In this document: one piece after another, positions 3,349-50,333 of the stretch
How the letters are laid out: each line of letters opens with the position of its first letter
How positions within the stretch are numbered: position 1 is the stretch's first letter
Source: Candidatus Dormiibacterota bacterium
GTDB lineage: Bacteria; Chloroflexota; Dormibacteria; Aeolococcales; Aeolococcaceae
NCBI GenBank assembly: GCA_003153505.1
Contig: PLZA01000031.1
Span: 1 to 64,000, forward strand
Length of the DNA: 64,000 nucleotides
Direction of reading: 5' to 3'
Translations under genes and position numbers: made by a program
Notes under the pieces: generated by a model
Database searches by the model: none
What the model was told of the DNA's origin: nothing
Seen by the model: only the letters and a program-made list of their open reading frames with translations

Positions 3349-3714
3349 CGCTTCTTCCTTCAGCGCCCAGTTGGATGCATTCACAATACGTGTACCCGCT
3401 GCCACCTGTTACCAACCTCCCGAAGCGGTAGCCCTTCGGGAATCCCGGAAGGCCGAGGTTCACCACTGTCGAGCGGGCGATCTGCTCACAGCGAGCTGGC
3501 TCACCCAGAGTGCAACTACCTCACCAGAGGGTGATCCGTGAGGAAGCCACCGTGGCATCGCGCCATCCGGGTGGGCTATTCACTAGAGTGAGTAGCCCAT
3601 TCGGTCGATGGTCAGCCTCGGCAGGCACTCTCGGCTCGCGCAGCAAAGGCGACTGTCGCCGACTCCCCGCTGTCTCTTAGCGGCAACGCAGAACAGGCAC
3701 GGAGGCCTCGGAGA
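3349..3714. other. Divergent intergenic region before the sigma factor, with an imperfect palindrome
   Basis: This 366-base region separates the minus-strand small gene from the plus-strand sigma gene. At 3573-3598 it holds an inverted repeat with arms GGGCTATTCACT and AGTGAGTAGCCC around a two-base spacer (11 of 12 pairs). This could be an operator or a transcript hairpin in the sigma leader. I see no other gene here. Confidence 0.5.
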
Positions 3715-4818
<1,104 letters not shown>

Positions 4819-15265: not shown

Positions 15266-16780
15266 TCAGTAGACCTCGAAGTATTCACGCATTTCCCACT
15301 CGGAAACAACCTGCCCCTCGGGCGTTGGGTTCTCGGCGAGCGCGGCCTCGTAGCGGGCGTTCTCGGCGCGTTTCATCATCACGTAGTAGTCAACGAACGC
15401 ATCACCGAACTCGCGTCGGAAGAGCGCGTCGCCCTCGAGTGCATCGATGGCGGCTCCAAGAGATGTCGGCAGCAGCTCGGCGTCCTCCGCGTACGGATCC
15501 GCGGCGACCGGCGGCGGCGGCGATATGCCGCGGTTGATGCCGTCGAGCCCCGCGACGATATTCGCCGCCATGTAGAGGTAGGGGTTGGCCGCCGGCTCGC
15601 CGAGCCGGTTCTCGATGTGTGTGCCCTTGTCGCCGATACCGCCCTGAACGCGCACCATTGCACCACGGTTCTCCAGCGCCCAGCCGATGCGGTCGGGAGC
15701 GAAGGAGTATGGGCGGAACCGTCCGTAGCCGTTGACCGTTGGCGTGGTGAATATGGTCATCGCCTTGGCGTGCTCGAGCAAACCGCCGACGAACTGACGC
15801 CCAACTGGCGACAGCATCTCGGTCTCTGACGCGAAGGCGTTTTCCCCACTGGCGGTGTCGACGAGCGACTCGTGGAGATGCCATCCAGACGGGAAGAAGT
15901 TCGGCAGTCCGGGCCAGCACATGAATGTGGCCAGCAGCCCACGGCGGCGGCAGATCGCCTTCACTGCGGTCCGGAACATGATCATGGCGTCAGCCGCTAC
16001 CAGTCCGGTCAAGGGACTGAAGGTGAACTCCATCTGCCCGGGACCCCACTCATCCTCCATCGACCGGGGCGGCAGGCCGATGTCGTACAGGCCGTCGCGC
16101 AACGCGCTGACCGTGCTCTCGACGCCATCGAGCCGGGTTTCGGAGAGGAATTGGTATCCTTGCTCGAAGACCTCGACCGCCGGTGGAGGCGGCGGGGCGC
16201 CCGTCTGGTCCAGGCCGATGCGATCGCTGGTCAGGCGAACGATGTAGTACTCCACCTCGAGCCCCGCGGTGTACGCGTAGCCGGCCTTGTCGAGTCGCTG
16301 AAGCTGTTGGCGCATGATGGCGCGCCCATCGAGCGGCACCGGCCTGCCGTTGCTGAAGTAGACATCACAGAGCACCCAGCCGGTGCGATCCGCCCAGGGC
16401 AGGATTCGAAAGGTCGATGGGTCGGGCACGATAACCACGTCAGGGAAACCGGTGAATTCCTCGATGCCAAAGCCACCGCCTGCGCCGAACGCGGGCGGGA
16501 ACACGGCGTTGGCGGTGTCGAGGCTGTAGATCGCGCCGGAGAAGTCCGCCCCATTGCTCATCGCCGCGATCGCCGCCTCGGCCGAGAGGAACTTGGTGCG
16601 TGGCACGCCGTGTTGGTCGACAAGCACAACCCGGACCGTGCGCAACCCCTTGTCGCGAATCTCGGCCGCGACCTTGCTTGCCGCCTCGAGCTGCTCGTCG
16701 GTGTGGAGTCCGTGCTTGGCGACGAACCCGGGCGTGCCGATGCCGTAGTCGGTCGTGGTGCGGTCGTTCTCCTGGTTCAC
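15266..16780 (-). CDS. Glutamine-synthetase-family gamma-glutamyl ligase
   Basis: The start is taken as GTG 16780-16778, which overlaps the Lrp stop by 4 bases. A longer open frame upstream is Arg/Pro-rich shadow of the regulator. The 504-residue protein carries the GS catalytic fold, which uses ATP and glutamate to amidate ammonia or an amine. Visible motifs are GLEVEYYIVR (metal site), DEWGPGQMEFTFSP, SGWHLHESLVD, RVQGGIGDKGTHIENRLGEPAANPYLYMAA. There is no adenylylation Tyr motif as in GlnA. It resembles PuuA/IpuC/FluG-type ligases. With an amidohydrolase, a permease and a class II amidotransferase around it, it probably glutamylates an imported amine. Confidence 0.88.
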   Translation of the reverse strand: MNQENDRTTTDYGIGTPGFVAKHGLHTDEQLEAASKVAAEIRDKGLRTVRVVLVDQHGVPRTKFLSAEAAIAAMSNGADFSGAIYSLDTANAVFPPAFGAGGGFGIEEFTGFPDVVIVPDPSTFRILPWADRTGWVLCDVYFSNGRPVPLDGRAIMRQQLQRLDKAGYAYTAGLEVEYYIVRLTSDRIGLDQTGAPPPPPAVEVFEQGYQFLSETRLDGVESTVSALRDGLYDIGLPPRSMEDEWGPGQMEFTFSPLTGLVAADAMIMFRTAVKAICRRRGLLATFMCWPGLPNFFPSGWHLHESLVDTASGENAFASETEMLSPVGRQFVGGLLEHAKAMTIFTTPTVNGYGRFRPYSFAPDRIGWALENRGAMVRVQGGIGDKGTHIENRLGEPAANPYLYMAANIVAGLDGINRGISPPPPVAADPYAEDAELLPTSLGAAIDALEGDALFRREFGDAFVDYYVMMKRAENARYEAALAENPTPEGQVVSEWEMREYFEVY

Positions 16781-17352
16781 ACGGCCCCCCCGTGCTGCAG
16801 CGCATGACTGTCGAGGGCTGACCGCATCGAGTCGATCAGCTGGGTGGCGAACGATTTCGGCTGCATCTCGGCAAGGGTCAGCAGAGTCTCGGTGCGCTGC
16901 ACACCTGGAATCTGCCAGACCCGCTCGAGCAGCAGTTCGCGGAGATGATTGTGGTCGCGTACCAGGAGGCGCGCGAGCAGGTCGATGGCGCCGGTGACGA
17001 CGGTGATGTCCGTCACCTCCGGAAGCGCTCGCAGCGCCTCGATGACGGGGCCCTGAGGGTGACCCTGCACTGCGGTGATTGTCAGGTAGACGGTCACCGG
17101 ATAGCCGGCCTCGGCCCACCCGATGTCGACGCTGTAGGAGCGGATCACTCCCGAACGTTCCAGCCGAGCGATGCGCTCGCCAACAGCCGGTGGCGACATC
17201 CCGAGGTCACGGGCCAGACGGCGCTGTGACATCCGCGCGTCGGTTGCGAGGAGGCGCAGGAGATCGAGATCGACGGCGTCCAACACAACCGGCCGGGAAG
17301 GCCGTGCGACGACGTCGACAAGACCCGAGAGGGGAGCGGTCGCGTCAGCCAT
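16777..17352 (-). CDS. Lrp/AsnC-family transcriptional regulator
   Basis: The 191-residue protein has an N-terminal helix-turn-helix (LDLLRLLATDARMSQRRLARDLGMSPPAVGERIARLERSGVI). The C-terminal RAM/AsnC ligand-binding domain reads VYLTITAVQG, LRALPEVTDITVVTGAIDLLARLLV and IPGVQRTETLLTLAEM. Lrp-type proteins sense amino acids as octamers. It is the first gene of the five-gene minus operon, overlaps the ligase by 4 bases, and faces the aminotransferase operon across 135 bases. It is therefore the likely controller of both arms in response to the pathway's substrate. Confidence 0.9.
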   Translation of the reverse strand: MADATAPLSGLVDVVARPSRPVVLDAVDLDLLRLLATDARMSQRRLARDLGMSPPAVGERIARLERSGVIRSYSVDIGWAEAGYPVTVYLTITAVQGHPQGPVIEALRALPEVTDITVVTGAIDLLARLLVRDHNHLRELLLERVWQIPGVQRTETLLTLAEMQPKSFATQLIDSMRSALDSHALQHGGAV

Positions 17353-17487
17353 TTGTTAGCTGAGTGCCTCCTCGCACTTGCCATTCGCGCCACATTTCGG
17401 CAACATTCCCTATCAGGCGAGCCGTATCGGCGGGCAAAGGCTACCGGTCGCGTTACGCAATGTCAAGAACGCCGCAGGAGACGCTTC
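17353..17487. promoter_or_regulatory. Divergent promoter region of the nine-gene cluster
   Basis: These 135 bases separate the Lrp operon from the aminotransferase operon. A GCAGGAG site at 17474-17480 precedes the aminotransferase ATG. AT-richer stretches such as CACATTTCGGCAACATTCC are the most likely promoter or Lrp contact zone, but I cannot assign exact -35/-10 elements or operator arms. Confidence 0.45.
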
Positions 17488-18699
17488 ATGCAGACGCTTT
17501 CAACCCACCGCTGGTCGTCGGCGTTTGCGCGCCGCACTCAGGGCGCCAGTGGTGAGCTCGCCGCCATCCTCGAGCTCGCCGGTGGGACTGACCTCATCTC
17601 CTTCGCCGGTGGCCTGCCGGACCCGCAGACGTTCCCGGTCGCGGTGCTCAGAGATTTGGCGATGCCGCTGCTCAGCGGCGACGCGGCGGTCGCGCTCCAG
17701 TACTCCCCAACCCCCGGCCTGCCGGGGCTTCGCGGCGCGTTCGCCGACCGCCTCGCCGAGACTCAAGGGCGGCGTCCCGGAGCGGGCGAGCTGATGGTCA
17801 CCAGCGGCACCATCGACGCCCTCGGCCTCCTCGCCAGGGCGATGCTCGATCCCGGCGACGTCGCCGCCGTCGAGTCGCCGACGTACCTCGGGGCCATCGA
17901 CGGCTTTCGCGGCTACGAAGCCGACGTCCGCGGCATCCCCGTGGACGAGGATGGCATCGATACCGACGAACTCGAGCGCCTCTGCCGCAGCGACTCGCCG
18001 CCGAAGCTCCTGTACACCATTCCCGACCATCAGAACCCCACCGGAATCACGATGTCAGCCGAGCGGCGCTCGACGCTTGTGGAGGTCTGCCGCCGCCACG
18101 GGGTTCTCGTCATTGAAGACGTCGCCTACCGCGAGCTCACCTTCATATCCGAGCCTCTGCCGTCGCTGTGGTCGCTTGGTCCCGACATCGTCGTCCAGGC
18201 GGGCACGACCTCGAAGACCTTCTTCCCTGGTGTACGGCTCGGGTGGGCCGTGGGGCCGAGGGAGGTGATCGCGCAGATGGTCGTCGCCAAGCAGAACTCA
18301 GACCAGTGCGCAGGCGCGCTCGGCCAGCGACTGCTCGAGGAGTACCTCCGCGGCGGTCACATGGACAGGCAGCTGCGCCTTTCGAACGCGTTGTACTCGC
18401 AGCGCTGCGCGCGCATGCTGGCCGCGCTCGACGAGTACATGCCCGCCGAAATTTCCTGGACCCGTCCGCGCGGCGGGTTCTTCACATGGCTCAGCGGACC
18501 GGGACGGCTCGACGCCGTCGACCTCGCCCGCAAGGCCCGCGACGCCGGGGTGGCGTTCGTCCCCGGGCGACCCTTCCACCCGCACGCAGACGGTGCCAAC
18601 AAGCTGCGTCTTGCCTACAGCCTGGCCAGCGAGGACGAGATTGACGAGGGTGTCGCGCGCCTGGGGAAACTGATCACATCAACACTGGAGAACCGATGA
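17488..18699 (+). CDS. PLP-dependent class I/II aminotransferase (2-aminoadipate/MocR-like catalytic family)
   Basis: The ATG at 17488 follows GCAGGAG; the longer frame to 17353 is Arg-rich leader. The 403-residue enzyme begins SSAFARRTQGASGELAAILEL and contains LISFAGGLPDPQTFP, LQYSPTPGLPGLRGA, TIPDHQNPTGITMS and the PLP lysine K243 in TTSKTFFPGVRLGW. The motif IPDHQNPTG marks the fold-I subgroup that includes alpha-aminoadipate, kynurenine and MocR-type transaminases. No DNA-binding domain is attached. It overlaps the cupin gene by 4 bases. It likely transaminates an amino-acid intermediate of the cluster. Confidence 0.9.
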   Translation: MQTLSTHRWSSAFARRTQGASGELAAILELAGGTDLISFAGGLPDPQTFPVAVLRDLAMPLLSGDAAVALQYSPTPGLPGLRGAFADRLAETQGRRPGAGELMVTSGTIDALGLLARAMLDPGDVAAVESPTYLGAIDGFRGYEADVRGIPVDEDGIDTDELERLCRSDSPPKLLYTIPDHQNPTGITMSAERRSTLVEVCRRHGVLVIEDVAYRELTFISEPLPSLWSLGPDIVVQAGTTSKTFFPGVRLGWAVGPREVIAQMVVAKQNSDQCAGALGQRLLEEYLRGGHMDRQLRLSNALYSQRCARMLAALDEYMPAEISWTRPRGGFFTWLSGPGRLDAVDLARKARDAGVAFVPGRPFHPHADGANKLRLAYSLASEDEIDEGVARLGKLITSTLENR

Positions 18700-20707: not shown

Positions 20708-21085
20708 GCCTCGGCTGGCGCAGGGCGGGGAGAAGCTGAGAGCGAGGCGATAGATTACGGCTCGTTCGACTCCTCTCGAGCCTGAGCCGCTCGCGATTCC
20801 AACGGATTCCATCCCCCGGGCATTAGTCGTCGTTCCAACGTATTCGCCACGAAACCACTATTTCGAGAACTCACCTCGCATCGAGGAATAGGTAATGGCG
20901 GGGGGACCAGGGGTCGCAGGTTCGAGTCCTGTCTCCCCGACTGACGCGCAATTTGAGCTCACAGCGAGCGAATGGGTGGGGCGCTGTCATCGGCGTCCGA
21001 TCCACGGCCTGAAACCCACCGGCTGGCCCGCTGGTCACCGGTCCGGCTCGCTCTCCAGGCGGCGACGCCCGACCTCTGCGGCGAA
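20708..21085. other. Gene-free region with a tRNA fragment
   Basis: This 378-base stretch has no convincing gene. A related motif TTCCAACGGATTC / TTCCAACGTATTC occurs twice near 20799 and 20836. The 3' third of a tRNA is at 20904-20941 and is described separately. Nothing else stands out. Confidence 0.6.
20904..20941 (+). other. 3' fragment of a tRNA gene (possible attachment-site scar)
   Basis: The bases from 20916 form a T-arm: stem GCAGG/CCTGT around the loop TTCGAGT (20921-20927). They are followed by the seven-base acceptor strand CTCCCCG and discriminator A at 20940. Upstream, GGACCAGGGGTC looks like the end of an anticodon stem and variable loop, but there is no D-arm and no matching 5' acceptor. 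No CCA follows. Such 3' tRNA pieces are typically left at the end of elements that integrate into tRNA genes. Confidence 0.55.
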
Positions 21086-24984: not shown

Positions 24985-25372
24985 CATGGAGTTGCTGACC
25001 GGTGTGCCGGCACGCACGAGCGACCTCAACCTCCCCGATTGATGCTTTTTCCTGCTAAACGACTCTGTTTCGCGCGACCGCCGGGGCGGCAACGTCTGAG
25101 ACCGAACGTGTGAACGGCTCGAGCGGAGCAAACGCGTCCGTCCAAATGCGAGCCGGACTAGGTGAGCTCAGCGGAAGACAGCGCGAGGAGCGATGCGCTC
25201 CACGCCGGCGACGATGATCTCCTCGACAGGGGCGGTGGTCAGAACCCCACACTGGACGTGGCGCTGAGCTCGCCGCCTATCTGCTTTGCGCTTCCCCGTC
25301 ACCACCAGACAAAATCGACGATCCGTCCGGGTATTGAGTGACCATGCGCGGGTGCCTCGGAGGAGCAGGACG
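24985..25372. other. Gene-free region
   Basis: These 388 bases between the furA promoter and the methyltransferase remnant contain only short open frames without family features. A GGAGGAGCAGG site near 25360 belongs to the downstream gene. I see no RNA gene, repeat or strong hairpin. Confidence 0.5.
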
Positions 25373-26207
25373 ATGACGACGGTCAGCGGGACCAGTGACT
25401 GGACGGTGGTTGACGAAGGCTGGGGCCGCAAGGCCGTGGACTTCGCCGCCCTGAGCGAACCGAGCAACTGCCGCGAGTACGTCACGATGCATCACCGCCT
25501 TGGGGTGAGCGACGGTGACCGGCTTGTGGATGTGGCCTGTGGATGTGGCCTGTGGTGCGGGCCTTGCCATTGAGCTGGCGCGTGCCCGAGGCGCCGCCTG
25601 CGCCGGCATCGACGCGTCGCCCAGGCTCGTTGCCGTCGCTCGCGACAGGAGCCCCGATGCCGACGTCCGAGTGGGCGATATGCACGCGATGCCGTGGCCG
25701 GACGAGAGTTTCGATGTTGCGACCAGCTTCCGGGGTATCTGGGGAACAACACCCGAAGCCCTCGGTGAGATTCATCGTGTCCTTGCACCCGGTGGCCGAT
25801 TCGGGCTGACCGTGTGGGGGCACATCAAGGTCTCACCAGGTGCCTGGGCGCTCGCCCCCTTTCGATTGGCGGCATCCACAAAGGTGGGGAACCAGGCGGC
25901 GATGGTGACGTTGGGGCGACCCGGCGTCGGCGAGGATCTGCTTGCCCGGTTCGGCTTCATCGATGTCGAGAGAGTGGGTGTTCCTTTCGCGTGGGAGTTC
26001 TCAGACCCGGAGATGTACGCTCGCGCCCTGGCTTCGACCGGTCCAGCCTACGAAGCGATCCAGAACGTGGGCGAACCGGCGTTCCTTGCGGCCGCCGCGG
26101 ACGAGGCACGGTCGCACGTCCGAGACGGCCTGCCGCTGAGAGCAGAGATCAATGTCGTGGGTTACCTTGCCCGCAAGCCCGGGGCGACTAGGAGGGAGAC
26201 TGCATGA
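25373..26207 (+). pseudogene. Class I SAM-dependent methyltransferase broken by a 13-bp duplication
   Basis: The ATG at 25373 follows GGAGGAGCAGG. The first frame reads to GDRLVDVACG, the start of SAM-binding motif I, then goes wrong and stops near 25573. The +1 frame resumes with CGAGLAIELARARGAACAGIDASPRLVAVARDR, DVRVGDMHAMPWPDESFDVATSF, and EALGEIHRVLAPGGRFGLTVWG, the rest of a methyltransferase of the UbiE/Methyltransf_11 type. The break is a tandem repeat of 13 bases at 25525-25550. Removing one copy restores LVDVACGAGLAIEL exactly. The last ATGA overlaps the next gene, so the two were once coupled. The product is non-functional unless slippage restores the frame. Confidence 0.85.
25525..25550 (+). 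repeat. 13-bp tandem duplication (two copies plus a partial third)
   Basis: TGTGGATGTGGCC at 25525-25537 is repeated exactly at 25538-25550 and followed by TGTGG at 25551-25555. Because 13 is not a multiple of three, the second copy shifts the methyltransferase reading frame. Confidence 0.95.
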
Positions 26208-26794
26208 GCACGGTTGGCTTTCTAGCGGCACAGGCGCCTGACGCCGAGGCCCAGCGCCTTTTCGACGATGACGTCGCCGAGCTTGGATATGTGATGAACG
26301 TGTCCAAGCTCTGGGCGTATCAGCCGGCAACCCTGAACCATCTTTTCGACCTGATGGGCGAAACCCACGCGATCGAAGATCTCAGCTTCCGTCAGCGCGG
26401 CATCCTGGTCACCGCGTGTGCGTCGACCTTGGGCGACGCCTACTGCTCGCTGGCCTGGGGTGCGAAGCTTGCAAGCAGATCCGACGCGGAAACAGCCGCG
26501 GGCATCCTCCGGGGCGATGACGATCGCCTCAGCCCGGAGGAGCAGGCAATGGCGCAATGGGCTCGCAAAGTTGCGCGCGACCCGAACCACACCAGCGCCG
26601 CGGACGTGCAGGCACTGTGTGATGCCGGCTACAGCGATGCGCAGATCTTCGCGATGACGGCGTATGTCGCCCTGCGACTCGCGTTCTCGACGATCAACGA
26701 TGCACTCGGTGCTCGGCCGGACTCCGCCTTCCGGACGAGCGCGCCAGGAGCGGTGCTCGATGCTGTGAGCTACGGCCGACCCATCGACGAATAG
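26204..26794 (+). CDS. AhpD-like / carboxymuconolactone-decarboxylase-fold protein lacking the CxxC
   Basis: The 196-residue all-helical protein has the AhpD layout, including GYVMNVSKLWAYQPATLNHLFDLM near the N-terminus and FRQRGILVTACASTLGDAYCSLAWGAKLAS in the active-site helix. In AhpD peroxidases this helix carries C-x-x-C-x-x-x-H. Here the first Cys is Asp and the His is Trp (DAYCSLAW), leaving one Cys. Redox activity of the AhpD kind is therefore doubtful. A peroxidase-related or decarboxylase-like role remains possible. It overlaps the broken methyltransferase by 4 bases and was part of its operon. Confidence 0.8.
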   Translation: MSTVGFLAAQAPDAEAQRLFDDDVAELGYVMNVSKLWAYQPATLNHLFDLMGETHAIEDLSFRQRGILVTACASTLGDAYCSLAWGAKLASRSDAETAAGILRGDDDRLSPEEQAMAQWARKVARDPNHTSAADVQALCDAGYSDAQIFAMTAYVALRLAFSTINDALGARPDSAFRTSAPGAVLDAVSYGRPIDE

Positions 26795-30955: not shown

Positions 30956-33900
30956 TTAGGAGAGGGTGTACTCGAGGATGCGGTCGTTGTACGTGTCGGC
31001 GATGAAGAGGTTCCCATTGGGGCCCATCGCGACATTCTCGGGATGGTAGAGGGCCGTCGCGCCGCCCCCGGTGATATCGCTCCCGGTGATGGTGGTGACG
31101 ACGTTTCCGCTCGACTCGTCGAAGACGATGATCCGGTTGTTGTCACGATCGGCAACTGCGACATGGGTGCCGTTGGCCGCCACGCCGAACGGTGCGTTGA
31201 ATCCGTCCGTGAACGTGCGAACAGTACCCGTAACACTCCCGGCGGAGACGCTGAGTTCGAGCACCTGGTCGTTGGCGCCGTCCGCGACGAAGAGGTTACC
31301 GTTGGTGGGGTCGATGGCAACGCCGGCCGGCGTTGACGCAAGGCCCCCAGAGACCGTGTAACTGCTCACGGCCGTCTGGGTGGTCACATTCCAGGACTCG
31401 ATTCGATGGTTCTTCGTGTCGGCGATCCAAGCGTACCCGGCGCCAATTGCGATCGAGTCGGGGTAGTTGTCGTCACCAAGGGCGGTTCCCACCTTGCCGA
31501 GCCTGGCCACGACGGCGCAGGGGGTGCTCGCGTTGTAAGGCTGGATCACCTGGATGTCGCTCTGCTTCGTGTCGGCGACCCAGTAATCGCCGGTGGCCGG
31601 ATCGACAGCGACGCCCCGCGGCCAGTTGAATCCTGGTTGTCCGGTCGAGCTCGTAGTGAACCCGCGAGTACCACACTCGCCGAGCAGACTGCCGGTCGGG
31701 CTCATCACCGCCAACCGCTGGTTGACGGTGTCGACAGAGATGAGATCATCGGCTCCGTCGAAGCCGATGCCGCGCACCTGGTTGTACAACGAACTGGAGC
31801 TGTTTCCTGAGCCGACGAAGGGGTTGGGCAACATCGCCGAATACGTGTATCCGGCGGGCGACCGCGTCCACTCCTCCACACGCTCACCCCAAAGGTCGGC
31901 ACCCCAAATATTGCCGTTCGCGTCGACGGCCACTCGACGGAGTTGCGTGAACGTACCCGCCTGAGCGTCAGAGCCCGCCGAACCGATGCTCGCCACCCAG
32001 ACACCGCTCGGGGTGAACTCCTGGATGCGCTCGTTATTTGAGTCGGCCACGTAGATTGCTTCGCCTGGGGAACCGCTGCTGCGGTAGGGGTCGGTGCCGA
32101 TGGCAATCCCATAGGGGTTCTTGAACTGCCCGTTGGCGTTCCCCTTAGCGCCGAAGGTTGTGATGCAGCTCCCCCTGGGGCTGAACTCGAGGATGTTGTT
32201 GTTCTCATAGTTGGCAACGTAGACATCACCAGACGAGTCGGCGGCAGCATCGCGGGCTCGATTGATGACGCATGCGCCGCTCGAGGTGAGCGTCTGAACC
32301 AGTGCGCCAGACGTGTTGAAGACCATGATGTCGTTCTTCGGGGCGTTGGCCGCATAGACCATGTCTCCCGAGGGAGTGGAGCTCACGGTGATGCCGATGG
32401 CGGCTCCTCCGTGGAGCTTGATCGGCGGAATCAGGCACTTCCCCGTTGCTCCGCTCAACAGCACGATGCGGCCGTTGCCGTTGTCCGCGACATAGACATT
32501 CCCCAATGAGTCGACCCCGACGTCCCGCGGTTGCTCGAACTGGGGGTAACCGGGATTGGTGCCGCACGCCGCGAGGCTGCCCTCGTTAGCGACCTGAGGT
32601 GAATTCGTCTGCCAGACCAGCGTCCCACCCGGGGTGTACTCAGCGACGCGGTCGTTGCCGGTGTCGGCGACCACGATGTCGCCGGCATTGGGCGCACCGC
32701 TCGGCGCGACCTCAGCTCCAGACGGATACATCCCTGCATGCCCGGGGCCGCCGATGGTCGCCACATACGACGCCGGGCTGACCTGCGCCGGCGGCACCGA
32801 CCACTGGCTCACCCGGTTGTTGTTCTCCTCGACGACATAAAGGTTTCCGTCAGGTCCGACGGCGAGGCCTTGCGGCGTCCGCATCTGGCCCACCTTGGTG
32901 CCGGCGCCTCCGAAAGTGCCGACCAGAGCGCCGCTTCGCGTGTATTCAGCGACCTGGTTGGCGCTCGACAGCGCGATGTAGAGGTAGCCGGCATTTCCCG
33001 TGATCCCGAATACTCCGGCGCTGGGGATCGACGCATTGATGTTGAAGGATCCGAGGAAGCCGCCCCCGTTGGACCATTGCGCGAAGTGGTAGACGCCACC
33101 GGTCGCGCTTGTGTCGACCCAGACCGAACCGTCAGTGCTGTCCACCCAGATGCCGCGGACGAATCCCATGTTCTGTGCGCTGCCGATGGTGCCGAGCAGG
33201 CTTCCGGCGCTCGTCAGCGCAACGATGTCGCTGTCGTTGCTGTCCGCCACGTACACGGTTCCTGTGGACGAGCAGGCGAGACCATACGGTGTCTTGAGCG
33301 TCCCGTACGCCCATACCTCCTTGGGCGGGTCCACGCTCACGTTCCATGCGACGGCTGTGCTCGAATCAGTATTGGCAACAATCAGGTTCCCGGTCTGGGG
33401 ATCGACGCAGAGCAGGCGCGGATAGTTCATCGTGCTCGCAGTGTCGCCGCGCAAGCCCCACTCGCGGTCGTACGTGTAACCCCCGCTGCCATTGGGGATG
33501 AACTCCTCGATCCGCTCATTGAACGTGTCGGTGACGTACATGTCGCCCGAGCTGTCAAAAGCCACCCCACGAGGACCGTTGAAGCCGCCTGTCGGCGGGA
33601 GGTCGGGGTTGGGGGTAGCCGGAGCGATGAACTGGTAGTTTCCAGACTCGTCGAATACCTGCGCGCGGAAGTACCCAAGGTCGCCCACCCAGACCTGGTG
33701 CTGGCCGCTGACCGCGATATCTCGGGCACCGTCTTCAAACTGGCCGTTCCCGGTACCGCAGTCGCCGCCGCCGGATGGGACGCCATTGAAGTTCGTGACA
33801 AAACTCCCGAAACCGGAGCTCGACGGGTCGGCGTTGAACTCCTGGACCAAACAATTCTGTCCATTGGCGACGAATGCAAGGTTGGTGGCTGTGTCGATGG

Positions 33901-34738
33901 CGAGGCCGCGCATGTCGAACGTGGTCGACACCCCGCCGGGCGGCGTGATCTCCTTGATCGGCAGGCAGCCCGTGGTGGGCCACGGGGTCTGGAGGCAGCT
34001 GGGGTTGTAGACGTCGATGCGGTGATGGCCCTGATTGGCGATCCAGATGTCACCCGCGCTGTCGAAGGCCATGCTCCTCGTTGCCTTGAACGCGTATTGC
34101 GAGCTCGTCGGCGACACGAACGTGGCCTTGTTGGTCACGGGGTTGAGGACGACCAGGTCAGGCTCCGGCGGGTTGTGCTTGTCACCCCACTGGTTGGCGA
34201 TGTACACCAGCCCGTTGGGTCCGACCACGCATTGCGATGGGTAATCGAAGGCCACCACGTGTGTCGCCTTGTTCGTGCCCCAACTGGTGACCCAATTCCC
34301 GCTCGGGTCGTACTGGTTGACGTTGTAGAGGCTCCCCTCCGTCATATAGACGTCGCCCTGGAACGGGCCACCGCTGTTGTCGACGCAGATGCCGAACGGG
34401 GCCTGGTTGGTATCGGGTCCGAAACCGAATTTGCTCTGCGTGAACACGAAAGGGGTCGCGGGCGTGCCGTCGGCGTTGTAGTGGACGATCCGGTAGTTCC
34501 AGTAATCACCGACCAGGATGGAGCCATCCGACAAAGTTGCGGCTCCCCAACCGTAGAGAGTTGCGGCCCCGGGGATTGGCTGCCCTTGCCCGTTGGTCAG
34601 TCCGACGGTCGCACCCGGCGTGCACGCTGTCGGCTGGCAGCCGGACGGCGGCGGGGAACTGGCCTGCGCCACCGACGCTCCGAGCCCCGCGACTGCGAAT
34701 CCGACCGCCGCAACGAACGCGATGGTGCGACGGCGCAC
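30956..34738 (-). CDS. Large secreted NHL-repeat beta-propeller protein
   Basis: GTG 34738 is preferred: it follows AGGGG and starts a signal peptide (RRRTIAFVAAVGFAVAGLGASVAQA), while the longer frame to 35125 is leader sequence. The 1260 mature-side residues are filled with NHL repeats, seen as 'G.L..P.GVAVDS.GNVYVADT.N.RI..F' in many variants, for example GVAFDSSGDMYVTDTFNERIEEF and DVGVDSLGNVYVADNGNGRI. At least 15 copies suggest two or three propellers, likely outside the cell. There is no anchor at the C-terminus, which ends NDRILEYTLS on the last repeat. The ligand is unknown. Its 5' leader carries unusual structure at 34790-34935. Confidence 0.88.
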   Translation of the reverse strand: MRRRTIAFVAAVGFAVAGLGASVAQASSPPPSGCQPTACTPGATVGLTNGQGQPIPGAATLYGWGAATLSDGSILVGDYWNYRIVHYNADGTPATPFVFTQSKFGFGPDTNQAPFGICVDNSGGPFQGDVYMTEGSLYNVNQYDPSGNWVTSWGTNKATHVVAFDYPSQCVVGPNGLVYIANQWGDKHNPPEPDLVVLNPVTNKATFVSPTSSQYAFKATRSMAFDSAGDIWIANQGHHRIDVYNPSCLQTPWPTTGCLPIKEITPPGGVSTTFDMRGLAIDTATNLAFVANGQNCLVQEFNADPSSSGFGSFVTNFNGVPSGGGDCGTGNGQFEDGARDIAVSGQHQVWVGDLGYFRAQVFDESGNYQFIAPATPNPDLPPTGGFNGPRGVAFDSSGDMYVTDTFNERIEEFIPNGSGGYTYDREWGLRGDTASTMNYPRLLCVDPQTGNLIVANTDSSTAVAWNVSVDPPKEVWAYGTLKTPYGLACSSTGTVYVADSNDSDIVALTSAGSLLGTIGSAQNMGFVRGIWVDSTDGSVWVDTSATGGVYHFAQWSNGGGFLGSFNINASIPSAGVFGITGNAGYLYIALSSANQVAEYTRSGALVGTFGGAGTKVGQMRTPQGLAVGPDGNLYVVEENNNRVSQWSVPPAQVSPASYVATIGGPGHAGMYPSGAEVAPSGAPNAGDIVVADTGNDRVAEYTPGGTLVWQTNSPQVANEGSLAACGTNPGYPQFEQPRDVGVDSLGNVYVADNGNGRIVLLSGATGKCLIPPIKLHGGAAIGITVSSTPSGDMVYAANAPKNDIMVFNTSGALVQTLTSSGACVINRARDAAADSSGDVYVANYENNNILEFSPRGSCITTFGAKGNANGQFKNPYGIAIGTDPYRSSGSPGEAIYVADSNNERIQEFTPSGVWVASIGSAGSDAQAGTFTQLRRVAVDANGNIWGADLWGERVEEWTRSPAGYTYSAMLPNPFVGSGNSSSSLYNQVRGIGFDGADDLISVDTVNQRLAVMSPTGSLLGECGTRGFTTSSTGQPGFNWPRGVAVDPATGDYWVADTKQSDIQVIQPYNASTPCAVVARLGKVGTALGDDNYPDSIAIGAGYAWIADTKNHRIESWNVTTQTAVSSYTVSGGLASTPAGVAIDPTNGNLFVADGANDQVLELSVSAGSVTGTVRTFTDGFNAPFGVAANGTHVAVADRDNNRIIVFDESSGNVVTTITGSDITGGGATALYHPENVAMGPNGNLFIADTYNDRILEYTLS

Positions 34739-34789
34739 GTGTGCCCCTGGTCGGACGTTCAGTATCAAGCCCGTGCCCGCGAGAGGAGA

Positions 34790-34815
34790 GAGCGGGTGGC
34801 AAGTGCCACCCGCTC
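34790..34815 (-). terminator. Perfect 12-bp hairpin in the leader of the NHL-repeat gene
   Basis: Arms GAGCGGGTGGCA (34790-34801) and TGCCACCCGCTC (34804-34815) are perfectly complementary around a two-base centre. In the transcript the hairpin is followed by a pyrimidine run (TCTCTCCTCTC) and, about 50 bases on, the GTG start. It could attenuate transcription. Confidence 0.55.
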
Positions 34816-34935
34816 GGGGAGAATTACCAACTGAGAGCGAGTAGCCCGCTCGCCCACGCCAGCCATCACATCCATGTTCCGACTCCACCTTCCCCATCTT
34901 CTTGGCCCCGGTTCGCTCGCCGCTCGAGACGAACT
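34816..34935 (-). promoter_or_regulatory. Structured 5' leader, possible c-di-AMP (ydaO-like) riboswitch
   Basis: On the minus strand this segment contains GAACCGGGGCC, then GATGGGGAAGGTGGAGTC, then GGCGAGCGGGCTACTCGCTC. In order and spacing these loosely recall the conserved GGAACCGGGGA, GGGGTGAATC and CCCGAACCCGTCAGCTAAC blocks of the ydaO-yuaA riboswitch. The GAGCGGG block (complement of 34845-34851) repeats the 5' arm of the hairpin at 34790-34815, so the two could compete for the same partner. Agreement with the consensus is partial. Confidence 0.22.
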
Positions 34936-35048
34936 CCAGAGCGTCCGGGCCATGGTTCCGATCGGCTCGTCGCACGAACCGACTAGACCATATGATCGGC
35001 TGGCAACCTGAACGCCACATTAAGCGCCGGTAACGAAAGCTCCATCCG

Positions 35049-36278
35049 TCAAGGCAGATCGACGGTGAACCTTGTGCCCTGAGGCGGCTGTTCGAGGCGC
35101 ACCTCCCCGCCATGTAGTCGAGCAATCGTCTGGCAGAGAGCCAATCCGAGACCAGCGCCGCCAGTTTCTCGCGTGCGAGATGGGTCGCCCCGCTTGAACC
35201 GCTCGAAGATTTCGCCGCGCAAGTCAGGAGGGATTCCCGAGCCAGTGTTGGCGACGCTCATGTGCCAGCCTGATCGATCGCAAGTCGCCGAGAGGGAAAT
35301 TGAGCCGCCTGCCTGCGTGTACCGACACGCGTTGTCCATGAGATTATCGAAAAGCCGTGCTAGCAAGAGGTGATCTCCCTGAACGATCCCCTGGTCAGGA
35401 AGATCCAACTCGAGTGTCAAGTCGTGCGCAGCGATCATCGCCCCCCAGCGCGCAGCCAAATCGGCAAGAAAATCGGCGACATCCACCGCACCCTCGTGGA
35501 TGGCGAGGTGCCCTTCGTCGGCTCGAGCCAGGATTAGTAACGCGTCCGCGAGATCGCTGAGACGAATGACTTCGTGTTGCAGAGTCGTCAGGCTCTCGCG
35601 ATACTCAGCAGCCTGCCGGGGGCGGTCCAGTGCGCGATCTGCAACGGTACGCATGATCGCGAGCGGGGCTCTCAACTCGTGGGCGGCGTCAGCAGTGAAA
35701 TCCACGAGACGCGAATTCAGGCGGCGCAGCGCGTGAGCCTGAGCACCGAGGGTGTCGACAGCTGCACTGAGTTCCGCACTCAGCTGTTCGTTCTCAGCAA
35801 GACGCGCGATTGTTTCGTCAGCTCTCTGGCGTTCGATATCGAGCAACCGTCGATGCAATTCGCTACGCCTGCGTTCTGAGCGCTGGAGCGCGATGACCGC
35901 GAGGCGGCCGACCGTGGCAACAATCACAACCGCGGTGAATTGGAAACCCCCAGTCACGCGATCCACGGCGCCGTCGGCAACTGCCGCGACGATCACTGCA
36001 ATGGCGGTCGCGACGACGGCGGTCGCCCATGGAGTCGGCAGGGTCCACGTACCGACCAGGACAGCCAGTAGCGCATAGCTCCCGAGGGTCACGCCTGGCA
36101 GAACCGCGGTCTCCCCGATCAAGACCAACGCAAGGCCGGCGATGCAAACGGTAAAGACAGGGGCGATCTGACCGACTCCGGTGAGCTGCTGCGGCCGGCT
36201 CAACAGGCGTCGTGCCCAGCGTCTGACCCGGTGTGGTGTGGCGGGGGAGTGTCGCGCCGCCGTCGAGACCCTATTCAT
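35049..36278 (-). CDS. Sensor histidine kinase (HisKA/HATPase_c)
   Basis: The 409-residue protein has four hydrophobic segments at about 35-130 with little extracellular loop, so it may sense within the membrane. A helical linker (RRSELHRRLLDIERQRADETIARL) leads to the H-box FTADAAHELRAPLAIMRTVA with the phosphoacceptor His. The catalytic domain shows the N-box DNLMDNACRYTQ, G1 VANTGSGIPPDL and G2 GGAGLGLALCQTIARLHGG. It overlaps the response-regulator gene by 8 bases. The QseC/PrrB-like layout gives no clue to the signal. The upstream TauE gene suggests sulfur or thiol stress as one option. Confidence 0.92.
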   Translation of the reverse strand: MNRVSTAARHSPATPHRVRRWARRLLSRPQQLTGVGQIAPVFTVCIAGLALVLIGETAVLPGVTLGSYALLAVLVGTWTLPTPWATAVVATAIAVIVAAVADGAVDRVTGGFQFTAVVIVATVGRLAVIALQRSERRRSELHRRLLDIERQRADETIARLAENEQLSAELSAAVDTLGAQAHALRRLNSRLVDFTADAAHELRAPLAIMRTVADRALDRPRQAAEYRESLTTLQHEVIRLSDLADALLILARADEGHLAIHEGAVDVADFLADLAARWGAMIAAHDLTLELDLPDQGIVQGDHLLLARLFDNLMDNACRYTQAGGSISLSATCDRSGWHMSVANTGSGIPPDLRGEIFERFKRGDPSRTRETGGAGLGLALCQTIARLHGGEVRLEQPPQGTRFTVDLP

Positions 36279-48902: not shown

Positions 48903-49028
48903 GGTGGAGATTATCGCGCAAGAATTGGTCTATCCACCGACCCATTGACATAGTCGTCCACGTCGGAGCAGACTTCCGCCAGTAATCGGGGACGGCCCTA
49001 CAAACGGGCCAATGACGGAGGTTGGACA
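48903..49028. promoter_or_regulatory. Divergent regulatory region between the GntR and Liv operons
   Basis: The 126 bases contain TTGACA at 48945-48950 with CAGACT near 48969, a possible promoter for the Liv operon. The near-palindrome TTGGTCTATCCACCGA at 48925-48940 resembles FadR-type sites (TNGTNNNACNA). GGAGG near 49018 serves the binding protein gene. Confidence 0.35.
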
Positions 49029-50333
49029 GTGTCGCCGACAGCCATGGCCCGGATCCCGCAAACACGTGCTCCGAAACGCCTGCTCACCGGTATCGCGGTG
49101 GCCGTTGTCGTCGCTGCGTGCGGCAGTTCGAGTCCATCCGGCAGCTCGGGTGGGGGCAACGTCAAGACCGACAGCGCCGGGCATGTGTCGTTCGGCGTGC
49201 TCTCCTGTTTCACGGGCCCGCTTGCGGTGCTCGGGCAAGCGATGCTCCAGGGATCGCAGGTCGCGCAGAAGGTCATCAACGATTCGGGCGGAGTGCTGGG
49301 CAAGCAGCTGGACCTGAGCCATGCGGATACGCAGTGCGACGAGGCTGACGCCGTGCCTGCGGTGCGGCAGCTCCTTTCCGCAGACAGTGTGAGTGGCATC
49401 ATCGGCCCGGAGACTCAGGAGATCGCGGCGGTGGCGCCGATCGTGAGCGCGGCCAAGATCCCCACCGAGTTCCAAGGCGGGAGCACCGCGTTCGACAAGA
49501 ACACCAACCAGTATCTCTGGCGCGACAGCCCGTCGGACTCGCAGCTCGGCGTCGCCATGGCGCTCTACGCCCATCAGAAGGGTTACAAGACCGCGGCGCT
49601 GCTCTTCTCGTCAGACATCGCGCAACAGACAATCCCCAAGCCGATCACCGCGACGTGGGAGAAGTTCGGCAACTCCATCGTCTCCAACATCACGGTTGCG
49701 CCCGGGCAGACCTCATATCTCACCGAGGTCCAGCAGATCATCGCCGCGCACCCCGACGTTATCTTCACGCAGCTCGATCCTCAGACTGCTGCGGTCATGT
49801 TCCAGAACTTCAAGGAGCTCGACAATCTCGCCATCCCGATCGTGGGAACGGATGTGACGAGCGGCAACGACTATCTCAAGGCGATCACCTATCCGGTCGC
49901 CCATGATCATCTTGTCTCCGTCTACGGCACCAACGCAACCGGTGCTGCCGCTGACAACTTCGCCGCCGCGTTCGCCGCCCAGAACGGCGCCAATGCGCAA
50001 CCGATCGCCGGCGCCAACTACGCCTATGACGCGGTGCTGAGCCTCGCGCTGGCGATGGACAAAGCCGGCACCACCGATGGTGCGGCGGTCATCGCCGACA
50101 TGAAGCAGGTGACCAACCCACCGGGCACGCCGTGCGACACCTACAAGGCATGCCTCGCGGGTATCAAGGCCGGGACCAAGATCAAGATGGACGGGTCCAG
50201 TGGTGACCTCATCTTCAACGCGTACAACAACGTCTTTGGTCCCTACGGCGCATTCCAGGCCGATGCCACGACGGGAGCCGAAAGTCAGATCGCACTCCTC
50301 TCAGCTTCGGACCTTGCCACAGCTACTCCCTGA
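49029..50333 (+). CDS. Liv-type ABC transporter substrate-binding lipoprotein
   Basis: The GTG at 49029 follows GGAGG. The 434-residue protein begins with a lipoprotein signal ending VAVVVAACGSS (lipobox AAC). The mature part is a periplasmic-binding-protein type I fold: VSFGVLSCFTGPLAVLGQAMLQGSQVAQKVIND, LSHADTQCDEADAVPAVRQLLS and GIIGPETQEIAAVAPIVSAAKIP. Such proteins deliver amino acids, amides or carboxylates to LivHMGF permeases. Four genes of that transporter follow after a strong hairpin. The nearby decarboxylase and CoA-transferase favour an organic acid as ligand; this is inference. Confidence 0.92.
   Translation: MSPTAMARIPQTRAPKRLLTGIAVAVVVAACGSSSPSGSSGGGNVKTDSAGHVSFGVLSCFTGPLAVLGQAMLQGSQVAQKVINDSGGVLGKQLDLSHADTQCDEADAVPAVRQLLSADSVSGIIGPETQEIAAVAPIVSAAKIPTEFQGGSTAFDKNTNQYLWRDSPSDSQLGVAMALYAHQKGYKTAALLFSSDIAQQTIPKPITATWEKFGNSIVSNITVAPGQTSYLTEVQQIIAAHPDVIFTQLDPQTAAVMFQNFKELDNLAIPIVGTDVTSGNDYLKAITYPVAHDHLVSVYGTNATGAAADNFAAAFAAQNGANAQPIAGANYAYDAVLSLALAMDKAGTTDGAAVIADMKQVTNPPGTPCDTYKACLAGIKAGTKIKMDGSSGDLIFNAYNNVFGPYGAFQADATTGAESQIALLSASDLATATP

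Follow-up and report, generated by a model that had tools for sequence, protein, structure and literature searches.

A 13-bp tandem duplication splits a redundant methyltransferase gene in a Candidatus Dormiibacterota genome, probably as a recent slippage event

The window analysed here, a stretch of 64,000 nucleotides of Candidatus Dormiibacterota DNA, carries on its plus strand a gene for a class I SAM-dependent methyltransferase (25373-26207) that is split into two overlapping reading frames offset by +1. The upstream frame (25373-25573, 66 aa) opens with an ATG at 25373 and, according to frame reading and tblastn, encodes methyltransferase residues 1-57, nine off-frame residues and a stop codon. 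The downstream frame (25515-26207, 230 aa; ORF list and Pfam), for which a GTG at 25515 is the candidate start, contains the Methyltransf_11 domain with a complete motif I and lacks the 51 N-terminal residues of the family. With an intact paralogue as tblastn query, residues 1-60 aligned to 25373-25552 and residues 52-272 to the next frame at 25539-26201. Direct reading of the plus strand places the unit TGTGGATGTGGCC twice in exact tandem at 25525-25550, followed by TGTGG. The first copy occupies 25525-25537 and the second, identical and shifting the frame by +1, 25538-25550. The partial third copy, TGTGG at 25551-25555, represents microhomology that would permit slippage. The array has the highest TRF score in the window (63, among the 32 rows listed), and the +1 offset of the frames is the one expected from 13 extra bases. 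A first-pass annotation had described the exact duplication with its partial third copy, and both direct reading and TRF confirmed its coordinates. Frames and tblastn likewise agree with its statement that the duplication splits the methyltransferase gene and leaves the remainder of both frames undamaged.

The first-pass annotation had further held that deletion of one copy restores motif I and fuses the two frames. The latter part is in accordance with the +1 difference between the frames, but motif I needs no restoring: VDVACGAGLAIEL is complete in the downstream frame, and the part now separated comprises the 51 residues at the N-terminus. Of the 39 columns found invariant across 40 relatives, this segment contributes six (W10, G16, W17, G18, A25 and E29). 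AlphaFold modelling of the intact paralogue from 40 sequences (mean pLDDT 92.1; an earlier model from seven was poor, pLDDT 54) places helices 12-15 and 17-43 ahead of a strand at 50-54, and the break falls at the modelled motif I loop. A Methyltransf_11 enzyme in one continuous frame with its N-terminal region is not present, which makes the window copy a split member. A 66-aa peptide and an out-of-frame catalytic domain deprived of its N-terminal helices would most likely amount to an inactive enzyme, and we expect neither frame product to be active. Could the downstream frame still work, either from the GTG at 25515 or through a +1 ribosome shift, and yield a shortened or altered methyltransferase? 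It is open over 230 aa with motif I complete and its invariant columns unchanged, and in a second copy of the gene, on contig C41, the split likewise falls a few codons before motif I and leaves a similar domain frame, but what is absent comprises both N-terminal helices and the six invariant residues, the N-terminus is in frame in 38 of 39 relatives, and no known +1 slippery motif was recognised by eye in the overlap. We therefore regard a working downstream frame as quite improbable.

The downstream frame scores 68.8 bits against Methyltransf_11 (PF08241; Pfam cut-off 21.2) and thus belongs to this domain family. The closest solved sequences and folds (PDB) include the small-molecule or natural-product methyltransferases MitM, RebM, TleD and LahSB, to which the similarity is distant (13-24% identity among the fold matches listed). 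NCBIfam matches were all below their cut-offs and concerned mostly general or small-molecule families, and a PADLOC match to mad2 was weak and confined to the shared domain. The families listed as Pfam or NCBIfam matches comprise small-molecule, rRNA and general methyltransferases and include no DNA methyltransferase of a phasevarion. Judged by these matches, the gene looks like a small-molecule type methyltransferase and resembles neither a DNA methyltransferase nor a surface gene.

The stop codon of the methyltransferase is overlapped by an intact partner gene for a protein of 196 aa (26204-26794, plus strand; ORF list, NCBIfam and tblastn) that is AhpD- or peroxidase-related-like and reaches 58 bits against TIGR01926, below the cut-off of 81.8. 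Such an AhpD-like partner adjoins the methyltransferase, at least in part, in 27 of 39 family loci. The methyltransferase itself is patchily distributed: it was found in seven of 32 family genomes (E up to 1e-60), among which that of the window alone has three copies. Relatives outside the family are mostly from Actinomycetota, which together with the patchy distribution gives a hint of horizontal transfer. Damaged relatives occur elsewhere: at L039:7826-8254 (G027) similarity is gone after about residue 139, and L091:3965-4671 combines the N-terminal half of an unrelated methyltransferase with a later frame shift.

The genome from which the window originates (G000) comprises 3,955,706 bases in 74 contigs and is a draft assembly, apparently a MAG. 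Its three methyltransferase copies lie on contigs C70 (the window), C68 and C41. The C68 copy is intact (273 aa in one frame), so that a redundant paralogue exists elsewhere in the genome, and the paralogues differ by about 16% in DNA. The C41 copy belongs to a segmental relative of the C68 operon (L041, G000:C41:1-5063) and has lost 2 bp upstream of motif I. Its partner gene is truncated, with a match only over residues 1-71, and the FAD frame upstream of it continues beyond the position of the stop in C68. C41 has only 5,063 bases and may be misbinned, which would leave two copies instead of three; the C68 copy is intact either way. C68 and C41 share the order RidA-TetR-4OT-FAD-methyltransferase-AhpD, in which the first four genes presumably encode RidA, TetR, a 4OT-type tautomerase and an FAD oxidoreductase, names assigned from the sequences without a search. 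Of this order the window keeps only the methyltransferase and the AhpD-like gene. Alignment with C68 shows similarity from 25332 onwards. The stretch 25332-25372 (plus strand) resembles the 3′ end of the C68 FAD oxidoreductase gene, which there stands in front of the methyltransferase. It is probably a remnant of that gene, the rest of which is absent from the window. Near the cassette, no gene order was shared with congeners beyond the two cassette genes and one further match in G003.

Repeats are found in the same region. An intergenic repeat of about 150-180 bp at 20793-20970 has 22 further matches in the genome (74-92% identity), flanks the C68 cassette on both sides and sits at the end of C41. 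It had no match in Rfam and its RNA fold was not unusual (z 0.20); a search of the entire window at Rfam gathering thresholds returned 0 matches, so that no conserved RNA element was found. A second repeat, at 25032-25211 upstream of the split gene, has copies at C68:18319-18498 and C39:108712-108827, each of which lies near a copy of the first. On the minus strand, an open frame of 1389 aa extends over 30956-35125, and the DNA at 32000-34600 matches many places in the same genome and in congeners at 66-77% identity, indicative of a multi-copy gene family.

In a draft assembly, a duplication of this kind might be false, the genome having one 13-bp copy and only the contig two. The apparent MAG origin and the 74 contigs are compatible with such an error, as is the fact that the bin also contains diverged paralogues, among them the frame-broken copy on the 5-kb contig; yet we consider it unlikely, because reads are much longer than the 26-bp array, a DNA difference of about 16% between paralogues is too large for an easy collapse, and the repeat ends in 5 bp of microhomology as in real slippage. 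Moreover, a frame-shift comparison in which 30,908 window bases were covered by open frames from 55 loci of congeners and the family produced 14 candidate rows, five of which are the methyltransferase locus, and none of the others was ascribed to an error in the window. Two rows at 48990-49864 arise because G005 lacks about 90 bases, G003 being alignable there without interruption; two at 15914-17791 are due to a run of N in G002; three at 3486-3650, where both aligned sequences show single-base gaps, most likely lie upstream of a gene start; and two involving L182, at 3814-4412, were read as a shift in G004, G003 being in one frame over 3643-4815. With these nine rows ascribed to relatives or to likely non-coding sequence, the window is not rich in frame errors. 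The methyltransferase split is the only clear frame break in the roughly 31 kb compared, and a poor assembly full of frame errors is not borne out. Random stretches of G000 and G003, compared over 31 open frames each way with antisense frames included, shared too few genes to give a rate.

When the window was simulated 20 times with a first-order Markov model, only one simulation contained any exact tandem duplication with a period of 10-40. In contrast, 488,064 bases of the genome itself hold seven exact tandem duplications (period 10-100), the 13-bp array included, and 400,000 bases of a congener hold five. The 13-bp repeat is thus not a product of chance sequence, yet repeats of this kind are not rare. 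With exact tandem duplications of at least 10 bp occurring about once per 70-80 kb in the two genomes sampled, an in-frame repeat by itself is no evidence for a switch. Another tandem element, the 11-bp unit CTGGGCCAATA, occurs in two or three copies at L111:17874, L117:6296 and L124:13300 (contigs C13 and C39). With up to two mismatches, there are nine matches in the same genome and matches in five of seven genus genomes, and none in a backwards control; given its spacing of one helical turn, our guess would be a regulator site.

A route to the 13-bp duplication is suggested by the surrounding sequence. At the site in the window there are five occurrences of TGTGG, against zero to two in each of the six nearest copies and the 39 family loci, so that the slip-prone array is private to the window copy. 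The window copy also differs from C68 and G001 in two codons at the repeat ends, neither difference altering the residue read in the family frame. Strand slippage between these short direct repeats would have duplicated 13 bp inside motif I, and this appears to account well for the unit. Relatives free of the repeat and a private TGTGG array fit chance slippage in a redundant copy and not an evolved switch.

The three copies of the genome show dS values of 0.60-0.65 and dN/dS ratios of 0.10-0.11, indicating that they separated long ago and have been under purifying selection. In a tree of the domain part they form one clade together with G001 (support 97/97), with similar end branches (0.083-0.14; 0.12 for the window copy). 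Changes private to the window copy amount to six amino-acid and 13 silent ones, compared with a combined 12 and 38 in C68 and G001 (Fisher p 0.55; a test of low power). For the C41 copy the figures are 13 and 20 (p 0.15). By a stricter whole-codon count, the window copy has one amino-acid and 12 silent changes. None of its private changes falls on the 33 invariant columns that begin at residue 52 or later. Purifying selection thus acted on the window copy until recently, and the lack of relaxed selection speaks for a recent break, in a comparison that has low power and in which this outcome is expected if the event is very recent. The earlier assertion that the event is recent therefore looks correct, there being no excess of amino-acid changes and no other damage in either frame. 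The purifying selection that is still visible also fits a gene that remains in use.

The most far-reaching claim of the first-pass annotation was that the gene switches on and off in a population. Comparison with related genomes lends this no support. The site in motif I is crossed in a single frame in 38 of the 39 family loci, the exception being L091 with its unrelated N-terminal half, and a tandem repeat at the site was found in none of the 39. The junction pattern, with up to three mismatches allowed, is present in one of seven genus genomes, namely that of the window. The locus thus has one feature of phase-variable genes, an in-frame repeat with a unit length not divisible by three (13 bp, two copies), and lacks another, a tract that is kept or varies in number among relatives. 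An evolved contingency locus was rejected because all 39 family loci are free of a repeat at the site. Known contingency loci contain long simple-sequence tracts, far from two copies of one 13-bp unit.

Reversal of the duplication would, judged by its structure, be possible in principle. Phase variation, with slippage between the two copies turning the enzyme on and off across the population, would be in line with the exactness of the copies, the absence of other damage and the selection still visible, but we consider it very improbable in view of the repeat-free relatives, the mere two units, the nature of the gene and the single allele state in evidence. In addition, according to a 2025 review (PMC11868660), the label phase-variable requires reversibility and a minimum rate, and reversal and rate are to be demonstrated. 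It is hardly to be expected that cells of the soil population express or lack the methyltransferase according to whether they have one copy or two, although even selection on the two frames and the lack of any further lesion would be compatible with this. Were it so, the break in C41 just upstream of motif I would represent a parallel off state. In the literature searched we found no report of phase variation in Dormibacteraeota, and a mixture of alleles would give an initial indication that switching occurs in this uncultured lineage.

Taken together, we favour, with a probability of roughly 0.7, a real and recent loss-of-function allele that arose when TGTGG slippage duplicated 13 bp in one of several methyltransferase copies. 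The resulting +1 shift would yield a peptide of 66 aa that stops just past motif I, with the catalytic domain stranded in the other frame. The intact paralogue, along with the upstream operon genes that are missing beside the window copy, probably made the loss tolerable, and redundancy may be why the broken copy has persisted. The locus is probably an ordinary, recent slippage duplication that broke a redundant methyltransferase copy. As it stands it has little significance, adding one more likely slippage event that breaks a redundant gene in a soil bacterium.

With MitM, RebM, TleD and LahSB the window copy shares the Methyltransf_11 type, differing from them in being split. A mechanistic likeness is offered by the capsule genes of pneumococci (cap3A, cap8E and tts), in which, in work of Waite from 2001 and 2003, tandem duplications inside open reading frames reportedly cause phase variation. 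Both cases involve one spontaneous tandem duplication that shifts the frame and whose removal could reverse the effect; the pneumococcal genes reportedly vary in phase, whereas the window locus is known from one assembled allele. Repeats in Mycobacterium tuberculosis, as described in PMC12817950, are longer and located in promoters. Although relaxed selection, which would set in on a frame-broken paralogue, is not yet visible on the window copy, the locus is like a young pseudogene in its single lesion, its intact relative in the same genome and its otherwise undamaged sequence.
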